Origin: Pseudomonas endophytica
GTDB lineage: Bacteria; Pseudomonadota; Gammaproteobacteria; Pseudomonadales; Pseudomonadaceae
DNA: 64,000 nt
Assembly: GCF_001411475.1 (NCBI RefSeq)
Contig: NZ_LLWH01000002.1
Coordinates: 1 to 64,000 of the forward strand
Direction: 5' to 3'
Part shown: one piece after another, positions 45,604-50,284 of the stretch
Layout: the number at the start of each line of letters is the position of its first letter
Position numbering within the stretch: position 1 is the first letter of the stretch
The notes under the pieces: model-generated
What the model was told of the DNA's origin: nothing
Databases searched by the model: none
The model's input: the letters and a program-made list of their open reading frames with translations, nothing else
Made by a program: the position numbers and the translations under genes

Positions 45604-46854
45604 TCAATCCCAGCTCAGTGCGCCACCAGTTTGATACTCAATAACCCGTGTTTCGAAGAAGTTTTTCTCTTTCTTCAAGTCCATGATTTCGCTCATCCAT
45701 GGGAAAGGGTTAGTAGTGCCTGGGTATTCTTCTTTGAGGCCGATTTGCGACAGGCGGCGGTTAGCGATGAACTTGAGGTAGTCCTCCATCATGGCCGCGT
45801 TCATGCCCAATACGCCGCGTGGCATGGTGTCACGTGCGTATTCGATCTCGAGCTGAGTGCCCTGCAGGATCATTTGCGTCGCTTCTTCCTTCATCTCGGC
45901 GTCCCACAGATGCGGGTTTTCGATTTTGATCTGGTTGATCACATCGATACCGAAGTTCAGATGCATGGATTCGTCGCGCAGAATGTACTGGAACTGCTCG
46001 GCAACCCCGGTCATTTTGTTGCGTCGGCCCATCGACAGGATCTGAGTAAAGCCGCAGTAGAAGAAGATGCCTTCCAAGACGCAGTAGTAGGCGATCAGGT
46101 TGCGCAGCAGTTCTTTGTCGGTTTCTACGGTGCCGGTTTCGAATTTCGGGTCGGAGATCGAACGGGTGTACTTCAGGCCCCAAGTGGCTTTTTTAGCGAC
46201 TGACGGGATCTCGTGGTACATGTTGAAGATCTCGCCTTCATCCATGGCCAACGATTCGATGCAGTACTGGTAGGCGTGGGTGTGGATCGCCTCTTCAAAC
46301 GCTTGGCGCAGGATGTACTGGCGGCACTCAGGGTTGGTGATCAGGCGGTATACGGCCAGAACCAGATTGTTGGCAACCAGGGAGTCAGCAGTAGAGAAGA
46401 AGCCCAGGTTGCGCATCACGATGCGGCGCTCGTCGTCGGTCAAACCCTCTGGGTTTTTCCAGAGGGCGATGTCGGCGGTCATGTTGACTTCTTGCGGCAT
46501 CCAGTGGTTTGCGCAACCGTCCAGATACTTCTGCCAAGCCCAGTCGTACTTGAACGGTACGAGTTGGTTGAGGTCGGCACGGCAGTTGATCATCCGTTTT
46601 TCGTCAACGGCAACGCGAGCACTGGCGCCTTCGAGTTCTGCCAGACCTTCAGCGATGTCGAGCTTGTCCAATTCAGCCTTGGCGCGCTTGATGGCAGCCG
46701 AATCGGTAGCCGTGACTGCGCGGGCCTCTTGAGCAGCAACGCCGCCAGCGGCGTCAAGGCGGTCCATATTGGCTTCGGTTGCGTGGCCAGCGTTGGCGCC
46801 TTTAACGGCGGTTTCGGCTTCGTCTTCTTTGTCGAACTCGTCCCAGCTCAGCAT
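45604..46854 (-). CDS. nrdB: Class Ia ribonucleotide reductase, small (beta) subunit
   Basis: The di-iron, tyrosyl-radical subunit that supports NrdA in making deoxyribonucleotides. Iron ligands are visible in [12 protein letters not shown] (Glu, His, with a nearby radical Tyr candidate) and [10 protein letters not shown] (Glu, His). At 416 residues it carries an N-terminal extension of about 90 residues (acidic/alanine-rich helix) that E. coli NrdB lacks but Pseudomonas homologues share. The ATG at 46854 with AGGAG upstream is the correct start. nrdA is not in the window; a long non-coding leader precedes the gene. Confidence 0.94.
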
Positions 46855-47291
46855 GACGTGTCGTCTCCTGCGTGAGGGCCTTGTGCCCGTGTGGTAACAC
46901 TGATGATAGGTTGTGCACACGGCCCAGAGGCCACTTGGATCTATGAAATGTTGCTGCAGTCGCGATATACGCACGCACAAACATGAATATGTTCGGGGCT
47001 AACTCGCCGTTACTCGAGGGATGCACGTGTTTCTGCATCTCGCCCTGGCCTTTGAAGCCGGAGTAGCTTGGTCGGCAGCCCGCTCAAAGGGTTTTTGCAC
47101 CCGTTGGGGGGCGCAAGTATACGGCTTTTGTACAACCTATTTCAGCCAGTTTTTTTCTGAGAAGAAGCGACGAAGTGACTAAATTTTCTCAAGGCTAAGC
47201 ATAGCGGGCGTTGGCGGGCAAGGAGGGTGCTACGGGGATTTTTTCGGGGCAGACTAAGCCCGGTCGAAACCGGGCGTTAAGTCGAGGCGGG
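46855..47291. other. Long nrdB upstream region, possible leader RNA
   Basis: A 437-bp region without a convincing gene. On the minus strand a TATACT -10-like box lies near 47115-47120, leaving a leader of roughly 260 nt. The leader holds a hairpin GATGCA/TGCATC (47020-47039). No NrdR box was identified with confidence. Confidence 0.45.
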
Positions 47292-47510
47292 CTAGCTGAA
47301 GCGATGGCCGCGGGTGCGATCGTAACCGTCTTCGGCGAAAGCAGCTGAACGAGTGTTGTCGTAACCGTCCTCAGCCAAAGAGGCCGAGTGAGTCGTGCGA
47401 GAGCCACCCTCAACAAAGTGGGCTGAGTGAGTACGGTCATAACCGTCGCCAGCCATGGCAGTACCGGCAATAACTGAAAGACTTAATGCCATAATTACAG
47501 CGAGTTTCAT
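47292..47510 (-). CDS. Small exported protein made of four 13-residue repeats
   Basis: A 72-residue protein: a signal peptide 1-20 (ending GTAMA) followed by exactly four tandem 13-residue units (21-33, 34-46, 47-59, 60-72). The unit consensus is E-D-G-Y-D-R-T-R-S-A-x-F-A; the second unit is the most divergent (EGGSRTTHSASLA). The protein ends exactly at the end of the fourth unit. It has no cysteines and is rich in Asp, Arg, Thr and Ser. Function is unknown; I do not know the family. It lies upstream of nrdB on the same strand. Confidence 0.8.
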   Translation of the reverse strand: MKLAVIMALSLSVIAGTAMAGDGYDRTHSAHFVEGGSRTTHSASLAEDGYDNTRSAAFAEDGYDRTRGHRFS

Positions 47511-47652
47511 TTAATGACTCCTGAGTGATTAAGGTGCAGGCAGCGCGTGCTGCAATCAATACGATGACGCATTGGAAGTTGCAGTTAAGTGGGGGGGTTA
47601 ATCATTTAAATAGTTAAGTTAATTGCGTGATTAACAGTGTGTTCGCCGTCCA

Positions 47653-47913
47653 TCAACCGTTGGAGCAACCGTTACCCATGACGCGGTACTCGAGGGTGTG
47701 CTTGATGCCTTGCGAGTCCTCGTAAACCATGCGGGCCGGCACCACTTCGCAAACGCTAGGCACTTCGCTCATGGAAATGACTTTGGCAATATCAAGTTCC
47801 GAAGCGTAGGAGTAGTGCTCGACAACCGGTTGTTGCGCTGCTTGAGTGTTGGCTTCATCTGCAAAAGCACTGAGGCATACACTGCTAAGTGCCAGAACTA
47901 ATAACGCTTTCAT
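47653..47913 (-). CDS. DUF2790 family exported protein
   Basis: An 86-residue periplasmic protein. A signal peptide (residues 1-18, ending SAFA) precedes a DUF2790 body with YASELDIAKVISMSEVP and the end LEYRVMGNGCSNG. Two cysteines could form a disulfide. The family is common in Pseudomonas and has no settled function, though some members respond to copper. Confidence 0.9.
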   Translation of the reverse strand: MKALLVLALSSVCLSAFADEANTQAAQQPVVEHYSYASELDIAKVISMSEVPSVCEVVPARMVYEDSQGIKHTLEYRVMGNGCSNG

Positions 47914-48328
47914 TTCTTCTATACCTGTTTAAAGGGCGAGTTGGGTCGCGCGGACATTGAGCGACTGCCTGTGAAACTTGATAAGTTGGAGCGATTAACA
48001 TGCCGTCGTGGGGGAGGTTACTTAGTTAATCGCAGTGCCTTGGTTGGCGAGGTGAATTTTAGGGCGCTGCCTTATGGGCATATAGAGGGGCTTTTGATAA
48101 AGACTGTTGACAAATTCTGCAACAATCGTCGAAAACAGGTTGTGCTTTCAGGTGTTTCAAATCTGGCAGCGATGGCTTACGCGCTGTAAACACCGGTCTT
48201 GAGCCTCGCATAGTAAAAGCCATGAATTTTTTAGGTGTTTCTTACTACCAACGTCGAATGGATCTCACGCCAAGGCCCAGATACAACTGGGTCATAAAAC
48301 AACAACTACAAATATAGAGGTATGAAAC
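47914..48328. other. DUF2790/acsA divergent region
   Basis: A 415-bp gap without a convincing gene, presumably carrying promoters for both neighbours. The only element recognised is the A-rich motif before acsA. Confidence 0.55.
48298..48305 (+). promoter_or_regulatory. Crc/Hfq-type CA motif before acsA
   Basis: AACAACAA, about 10 bases before the GAGG ribosome binding site of acsA. Confidence 0.5.
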
Positions 48329-50284
48329 ATGAGTGCCGCTTCCCTGTATCCCGTACGCCCTGAGGTTGCAGCTAATACGCTGACTGACGAGGCGACCTAC
48401 AAGGCGATGTATCAGCAATCCGTGGTCAATCCGGATGGCTTCTGGCGCGAGCAAGCCCAGCGTCTCGATTGGATCAAGCCGTTTACGACTGTTAAACAGA
48501 CCTCTTTCGACGATCACCATGTCGACATCAAGTGGTTTGCCGACGGCACTCTCAACGTTTCCTACAATTGTCTGGACCGCCACCTGGCTGAGCGCGGGGA
48601 TCAGATCGCGATTATTTGGGAGGGCGACGACCCTTCCGAGCAGCGCAACATTACCTACCGCGAGTTGCACGAAGAAGTCTGCAAGCTGGCTAACGCATTG
48701 CGCGGCCAAGACGTTCATCGTGGCGACGTCGTGACTATCTATATGCCAATGGTTCCAGAGGCGGTTGTCGCCATGCTGGCCTGTACCCGTATTGGCGCTA
48801 TTCACTCGGTCGTTTTCGGCGGCTTCTCGCCCGAAGCACTGGCGGGGCGAATCATCGACTGCAAATCCAAAGTCGTGATCACTGCCGACGAAGGCATACG
48901 TGGCGGCAAGCGCACTGCATTGAAAGCCAACGTTGATGTGGCGCTGACTAACCCTGACACCTCCAGCGTGCAGAAAATTATCGTGTTCAAGCGTACGGGT
49001 GGCGACATTGCCTGGTACAAGCACCGCGATATTTGGTATCACGACTTGATGGCGGTGGCCTCGACCCACTGTGCGCCAAAAGAAATGGGCGCCGAAGAAG
49101 CCCTGTTCATCCTTTATACCTCCGGCTCCACAGGTAAGCCGAAAGGGGTGCAACACACCACGGGCGGTTATCTGTTGTATGCCGCGTTAACCCATGAGCG
49201 CGTATTCGATTACCGTCCGGGTGAAGTCTATTGGTGTACCGCGGACGTCGGCTGGGTGACTGGGCACACCTATATTGTCTATGGCCCGCTGGCCAATGGC
49301 GCGACCACGGTGTTGTTTGAGGGTGTGCCGAACTACCCGGATATCACCCGTGTGTCGAAAATCATCGATAAGCACAAGGTCAATATCCTCTACACCGCGC
49401 CAACAGCGATTCGCGCCATGATGGCTGAAGGCCAAGCAGCGGTAAAAGATGCCGACGGCTCAAGCCTGCGTTTGCTGGGTTCGGTGGGTGAACCCATCAA
49501 TCCTGAGGCTTGGAACTGGTACTACACCACTGTTGGCAAAGAGCGCTGCCCCATTGTGGATACTTGGTGGCAGACCGAAACCGGTGCTTGCCTAATGACC
49601 CCGCTGCCGGGTGCGCATGCGCTCAAGCCGGGTTCTGCGGCGCGTCCGTTCTTTGGTGTGGTGCCAGCGTTGGTAGACAACCTCGGCAACCTGATCGAAG
49701 GGCCAGCCGAAGGTAACTTGGTGATACTGGATTCGTGGCCGGGTCAGGCGCGTACGCTGTACGGCGATCATGATCGTTTTGTTGATACTTATTTCAAAAC
49801 CTTCCGTGGCATGTACTTTACGGGCGACGGCGCGCGTCGCGATGAAGACGGTTACTACTGGATCACCGGTCGTGTGGATGACGTGCTTAACGTTTCCGGC
49901 CACCGCATGGGGACGGCCGAGATCGAAAGCGCGATGGTTGCGCACGCCAAAGTCGCTGAGGCGGCGGTTGTCGGTGTGCCGCATGACCTCAAAGGGCAGG
50001 GCATCTATGTCTACGTCACGCTCAATGGCGGTGAAGAGCCGTCCGAGGAGCTGCGTCAGGAGTTGAAAAACTGGGTGCGTAAGGAAATCGGTCCAATTGC
50101 CTCGCCGGATGTTATCCAGTGGGCTCCGGGCTTGCCTAAAACCCGTTCGGGCAAAATCATGCGTCGCATTCTGCGCAAAATTGCCACAGGCGAGTATGAC
50201 GGTTTGGGAGATATTTCGACCTTGGCGGATCCGGGCGTGGTTCAGCAACTGATCGACACTCACAAGGGCATGAAGGCCGCGTAA
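48329..50284 (+). CDS. acsA: Acetyl-CoA synthetase
   Basis: Makes acetyl-CoA from acetate, ATP and CoA in the cytosol. The 651 residues are full length. AMP-binding motif [12 protein letters not shown] (near 266-277), WWQTETG, and the C-terminal [11 protein letters not shown] with the Lys that is acetylated by Pat-type enzymes in related proteins are all present. GAGG lies 8 nt before the ATG. The neighbour order acsA-aotJ matches P. aeruginosa. Confidence 0.97.

Follow-up and report, generated by a model that had tools for sequence, protein, structure and literature searches.

The window, a 64,000-nucleotide stretch of a Pseudomonas endophytica contig (NZ_LLWH01000002.1), carries on its minus strand a small gene for a protein made of a signal-peptide-like start and four 13-residue units. 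At this place, hereafter locus A, the repeat gene is preceded by a DUF2790 gene and followed by nrdB, all on the minus strand, and the plus-strand gene acs stands beyond the DUF2790 gene. The features are as follows.

45604..46857, minus strand: nrdB, ribonucleotide reductase beta subunit (NF005550, 715 bits), a flank of locus A
47258..47275, minus strand: perfect 7-bp hairpin after the repeat-gene stop and before nrdB, without a proper T-run
47292..47510, minus strand: repeat-protein gene, ATG start, 72 amino acids, signal-peptide-like start and four 13-residue units
47295..47333, minus strand: unit 4, EDGYDRTRGHRFS, terminal (period-13 comparison of units)
47334..47372, minus strand: unit 3, EDGYDNTRSAAFA (period-13 comparison of units)
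47373..47411, minus strand: unit 2, EGGSRTTHSASLA, degenerate (period-13 comparison of units)
47412..47450, minus strand: unit 1, GDGYDRTHSAHFV (period-13 comparison of units)
47451..47510, minus strand: signal peptide MKLAVIMALSLSVIAGTAMA (by eye)
47517..47522 in plus-strand numbering, minus strand: ribosome-binding site AGGAGT, 6 nt before the ATG of the repeat gene
47653..47913, minus strand: DUF2790 small exported-type protein (Pfam PF10976, E 3.1e-27, 94.7 bits), 142 bp upstream of the repeat gene
48329..50284, plus strand: acs, acetate-CoA ligase (NF001208, 1095 bits), a flank of locus A

The complete product reads MKLAVIMALSLSVIAGTAMA + GDGYDRTHSAHFV + EGGSRTTHSASLA + EDGYDNTRSAAFA + EDGYDRTRGHRFS, that is, 20 + 4x13 residues with no remainder, and its predicted signal peptide has Lys2, a hydrophobic core and an AMA|G end (by eye). 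A first-pass annotation of this DNA had claimed a 20-residue signal-peptide-like start followed by exactly 4x13 residues, which both the translation of the open reading frame and a shuffle test bear out. Unit pairs of the window protein share 37 identities at period 13. When the 52 mature residues were shuffled 20,000 times, the count averaged 6.2 and never exceeded 19, below the observed periodicity in every case. Among lags 5 to 26, only 13 (identity 0.49) and 26 (identity 0.42) stand out. The same annotation had described four units of the EDGYDRTRSAxFA type: the frame of four 13-mers stands, but unit 2 keeps only some of the positions and the end of unit 4 differs.

Tandem Repeats Finder (positions 46500-48400, minimum score 30) found no DNA array, so the repeat in the window shows up at the protein level but not in the DNA. 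That the open reading frame is spurious was ruled out by orthologues at the same locus, selection in frame (see below) and the ribosome-binding site. A 91-residue, TTG-start open reading frame (47195-47470, minus strand) that overlaps the repeat gene out of frame is regarded as arising incidentally from the repeat DNA. The terminator scan gave no terminator at the 3' hairpin. Weak matches of the window protein to Pfam PepSY_2 and Porin_7 and to NCBIfam CsgA fell below cut-off and were set aside.

The repeat family and its three loci

Relatives were collected with a regular expression requiring three core matches, with Gly fixed at position 3 and limited choice at positions 1 to 7; removal of identical proteins left 86 distinct proteins, the window protein included, and the true members missed include L004/L006, L091, L117 and L127. 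Successive cores were spaced by 13 residues in 427/512 cases and by 12 in 51/512, and spacings of 14 and 15 also occurred. From 499 clean units, the consensus was [EA]-[DG]-G-[SYFA]-D-R-T-x4-[VFIL]-A, with V, F, I or L at position 12 in 493/499 and A at position 13 in 428/499. Because the regular expression fixes positions 1 to 7, conservation there is partly by construction, while positions 8 to 13 were free. Unit flavours vary by species and locus (DGYDRTGSATFAA, AEDGSDRTPGIRV, AEGGSDRLIENRV, AADGSDRLKGNTV and AADGADRTGGNRV). Some genes of genus g12 (among L110, L114 and L123-L125) alternate AENGSERSQSLRV and AEGGSDRTKAFDV, forming a 26-residue higher-order repeat.

The search for Pseudomonas homologues proposed in the first-pass annotation revealed a variable number of units, 2 to 25 per protein over the 86 proteins. 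This variation among relatives supports its view that repeat expansion is the entire design, and the number changes even among strains under one species name (4 and 5 units in P. lundensis; 4 and 6 in P. fragi). Its further statement that flanking sequence is lacking applies to the window copy but not to several relatives, in which additional sequence separates the signal peptide from unit 1. Taken as a whole, its interpretation is partly supported.

The window protein matched 205/298 genomes of the genus at E 1e-3, leaving 93/298 without a match, and a P. fragi orthologue matched 45/148 genomes of the family, in 8/19 genera; these genome matches were partly inspected, and weak ones may reflect the signal peptide only. 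An order-wide sample searched with the bridging protein L103 (E 1e-4) gave matches in 8/293 genomes, all eight in Pseudomonadaceae, and a search beyond the order that reached close relatives returned nine loci, all Pseudomonas. As far as sampled, the family is confined to Pseudomonadaceae. In genus g12, a family gene was present at 20/20 places fetched, and three genomes carry five or more such genes each. A mobile or phage origin was rejected: L048 matched 1/72,556 plasmid records (33.6% identity) and L109 matched 0/50,697 phage records. In one genome (L073, L074 and L075), four 13-mer genes resemble one another and two of these lie about 5 kb from each other, which suggests recent gene duplication. 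Elsewhere, three consecutive family genes (L100:244-2469) include one of about 25 units with a higher-order pattern of three unit types.

The source genome encodes three copies of the family at three syntenic loci, and all of the loci compared here were located through repeat matches. At locus A, the DUF2790 gene was present at 31/31 loci having both nrdB and acs (24 distinct places, as some were included several times, the window four times), and in 19/19 loci first grouped by flanks the DUF2790 and repeat genes shared a strand. Proteins of locus A (n = 20 of the set) had 4 to 8 units in 19 cases and 2 units in one. Locus B is represented in the source genome by a copy of 85 residues and five units on contig C1, flanked by an MFS symporter gene (571 bits, NF007710) and a flavin-reductase-like gene (by eye; without an NCBIfam match at E 1e-10); 58 loci, duplicates included, have at least one of these two flanks. 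The copy at locus C, on contig C230, has three units and is degenerate; its flanks are an asmA-like gene (by eye) and a FabR-like regulator (144 bits versus a cut-off of 151). The regulator was also found at seven further loci (L076, L079, L099, L103, L117, L119 and L127), and 5/7 of them had the asmA-like gene as well. These seven loci carry four genus labels (g1, g2, g4 and g12). Different unit types occur at this one syntenic place, locus C, and even in one protein, L103.

A DUF2790 match was found at 0/58 locus-B and 0/14 locus-C loci, duplicates included, so DUF2790 is not an obligatory partner of the repeat protein. Its structure was predicted poorly (mean pLDDT 58.5). On contig C112 of the source genome, two more DUF2790-type genes lie in tandem (L162:2338-3048) with no repeat gene seen alongside; a motif match on that contig was discarded as antisense within another reading frame.

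Open-licence PubMed Central held no description that we could find of the motif, the NCBI family name or a 13-residue repeat family, and among the papers listed there for small secreted repeat proteins and multi-copy pheromone precursors none was recognisably on this family. In the excerpts of a report on small secreted proteins of P. syringae, "repeat" refers only to repeated experiments (PMC5014320). The family was matched in about two-thirds of the sampled Pseudomonas species, yet the libraries searched contain no model dedicated to it. Some members would already be labelled by the NCBI PtrA model (see below), so the family is not categorically new.

Selection on the units and a promoter-like element

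Units within a gene differ mainly at silent sites. Their comparison gave pN<pS in 78/79 genes, with a median pS of 0.52 and a median ratio of 0.38; the one gene out of line was L039, with two usable units. For internal units, median pN/pS was 0.29 in frame (67 genes) versus 1.82 and 1.37 in the shifted frames (57 and 62 genes), and 59% of the differences fell at codon position 3. Across orthologues, the mature part of the window gene compared with six four-unit orthologues gave pN/pS of 0.19-0.38. This pattern points to selection on the peptide sequence. Judged from these substitutions, the units are retained as peptides and not merely copied recently; recent slippage as the whole story was rejected, as the units of one gene differ so strongly at silent sites. 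Selection on the amino acids of a repeat whose number varies offers a compact, testable model of the evolution of motif arrays. Sequence comparison thus establishes the export-type start, the unit, its variable number, the three conserved genomic positions and the amino-acid-level selection.

Upstream regions of 36/86 genes, chosen by three seed 10-mers, align around CTTTTTAATC-N11-CGTA, a promoter-like element. The exact element precedes 24/86 genes: 19/31 at locus B, 1/20 at locus A, 0/5 at locus C, 4/16 among the other g12 genes and 0/14 among the remainder. Genus genomes searched with the element pattern (spacers 8-11) gave 40 matches in 36/99 genomes, compared with 2 for the reversed control. 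For the 30/40 matches with a locus, the spacer was 11 in 26/30, and in 26/26 of these a family start codon followed 44-55 nt downstream (22 at locus B, 4 at locus A); 0/4 matches with other spacers were followed by one. The window copy is without the element, and the single match in the source genome precedes the copy on contig C1. This element, the link to PtrA and the DUF2790 neighbour are the handles on function that the family offers.

Relation to PtrA-type proteins and DUF2790

The PtrA N-terminal domain family (PA2808; model NF041599, cut-off 31 bits) comprises small Pseudomonas proteins in which an export-type start is followed by a short A-E-[DG]-G-x-D-R motif, as in the repeat family. 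The window protein scored 13.2 bits (E 0.063), below the cut-off, as did the copy on contig C230 (14.4), the orthologue L048 (18.5), L103 (26.6) and L073 (28.6). Five repeat relatives passed: L104 (32.4), L079 (51.1), L076 (66.7), L109 (74.0) and L077 (76.8). The higher scores come from several units adding up. No match was seen for L005, L036 and L092 (E up to 1) or for L100 and L101 (E up to 0.1). The search of the source genome with this model gave no match over the cut-off; in the wider sample it scored above the cut-off in 37/59 genomes and in 0/14 control genomes. Directly behind its signal peptide the window protein reads A|GDGYDRT, and L103 has both this form of the unit and the A-E-G-G-x-D-R form. 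By profile score and motif, the units show a graded resemblance to the PtrA-type AEGGxDR motif behind the signal peptide. PtrA-type proteins differ in that the motif occurs once and is followed by other sequence or DUF2790, whereas the window protein consists of repeats only; these single-motif proteins may be non-repeat relatives of the family.

DUF2790 (PF10976), the constant neighbour at locus A, is also fused to PtrA-type N-termini: 9/19 PtrA-N proteins, from 15/20 PtrA-N loci, run on into it (Pfam for L053; tblastn for all nine loci). Motif and DUF2790 therefore occur both fused and as neighbours. DUF2790 is a separate domain, and the window repeat protein has no PF10976 match (gathering score 27).

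The excerpts of two reports describe the P. aeruginosa PtrA as copper-inducible with a part in copper tolerance (PMC7763554, PMC8872213); one treats it as a CopRS-controlled auxiliary protein whose role is unclear (PMC7763554), the other as a periplasmic copper storage protein (PMC8872213). As excerpted, a study of P. alloputida KT2440 found 4/7 DUF2790 genes to be lanthanide-responsive (PMC11520305). Only these reports suggest, by analogy with PtrA (copper) and DUF2790 genes (lanthanides), that the repeat protein might act in envelope or metal stress.

Possible functions of the repeat array

We favor, at a probability of about 40%, an unstructured array that would present a short envelope motif multivalently and dock to an envelope partner. 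Each unit would be one copy of the docking motif, and one partner might be bound per unit or per few units. PtrA-type proteins carry the motif once, often in the same chain as DUF2790, and in the window the array and DUF2790 are the products of separate neighbouring genes. The number of units would set avidity or capacity; this would account for a drifting unit number alongside a conserved unit sequence. We infer that the mature protein is largely unstructured, remains at or close to the envelope and serves as a multivalent ligand. AlphaFold2 prediction for a six-unit orthologue gave a mean pLDDT of 47 and a pTM of 0.13, with only the signal peptide helical; as the alignment contained only 10 similar sequences, this low confidence argues only weakly for disorder.

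The alternative taken most seriously, which we nevertheless judge unlikely, is a polyprotein precursor cut at [VFI]-A / [EA]-[DG]-G boundaries into near-identical 13-residue signalling or antimicrobial peptides. It would account for the conservation of the units as peptides, for the constraint on positions 12 and 13, which were not used in finding the units, and for the resemblance between the end of the signal peptide and the end of a unit (NTFA|ADGYDRT and ATFA|ADGYDRT in L027). Signal peptidase I prefers a small residue at -3. The corresponding unit position 11 is not small (R in 228, D in 62 and K in 21 of 499 units), a tenth of the spacings (51/512) are 12 and not 13, and, as loci A, B and C have no gene in common, they revealed no linked protease or receptor. 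The narrower idea that each unit reproduces the signal-peptidase site does not hold as a rule: in some relatives, unit 1 does not directly follow the signal peptide. Multi-copy peptide precursors include yeast alpha-factor and the Gram-positive pheromone precursors. The repeat family shares with them a signal peptide (here by eye) and near-identical short units in varying number; in the repeat family, a processing site, protease and receptor are hypothetical. In its broader form, to which we give a rather low chance, this proposal would make the family a Gram-negative polyprotein system, in which exported precursors of Pseudomonadaceae with up to 25 copies would be cut at [VFI]-A into species- and locus-specific peptides, gene and copy number would set the dose, and PtrA-type proteins would be a single motif copy at the mature N-terminus. 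Tandem 13-residue repeats also occur in the propeptide of prolysostaphin. The arrangement of a signal peptide followed by tandem 13-mers is alike, but the sequence is different, an enzyme domain follows and the host is Gram-positive; a weak match of L104 to lysostaphin (6rk4, E 0.0059) probably reflects composition and period.

Protection of the periplasm in desiccation, cold or osmotic stress by a Gly-rich, hydrophilic and disordered hydrophilin, acting without sequence-specific partners, is an improbable explanation. Hydrophilins are defined by Gly above 6% and hydrophilicity above 1. The mature window protein (GRAVY -1.2, Gly 13.5%), L002 (-1.11) and L048 (-1.22) reach both thresholds among nine proteins computed, but 6/9 miss the hydrophilicity threshold (for instance, L027 at -0.57, L077 at -0.64 and L100 at -0.39), and the strict conservation of the units exceeds what bulk composition needs. 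We regard as more doubtful an ordered scaffold in which units stack as a beta-solenoid or surface fibre of the ice-binding or adhesin kind. The strict period would fit, and some units of the P. fragi clade (GYDSTRSA) are superficially like ice-nucleation repeats; against this, AlphaFold2 gives no strands (from a shallow alignment), the spacing is sometimes 12, 14 or 15 instead of 13, some proteins have only 2 to 4 units, and a search of solved structures with the locus-A profile found no homologue at E up to 1. Ice-nucleation and RTX repeats have periods of 16 and 9, respectively. Both resemble the family as tandem repeats with Gly, Thr and Asp, but the identity of the window protein at lag 16 is 0.14 versus 0.49 at lag 13, and at lag 9 it is 0.0, and the window protein has no Pfam match to ice-nucleation repeats or to the RTX repeat (PF00353); the relative L073 has one match to that model, below threshold (14.8 bits versus 23).

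Binding of calcium, copper or lanthanides by Asp, Glu and Tyr of the units, as a metal sink, seems very improbable. The kinship of the motif with PtrA, described as a copper storage or CopRS-controlled protein in the excerpts cited above (PMC8872213, PMC7763554), and the lanthanide-responsive DUF2790 genes (PMC11520305) speak for it. From position 23 on, the 86 proteins are nearly devoid of Cys (0.0%), Met (0.1%) and His (1.6%), so a copper role such as that of PtrA is not simply transferable to the arrays. The first-pass annotation had proposed that the repeats bind calcium or polyanions: the window protein has no calcium-motif match, and polyanion binding is unlikely at the net charge of -3 of its mature part, leaving both ideas with no support beyond composition. 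A DUF2790 protein also appears in the table of down-regulated genes of a P. fragi biofilm study, the excerpted running text of which says DUF2292 (PMC7921472).
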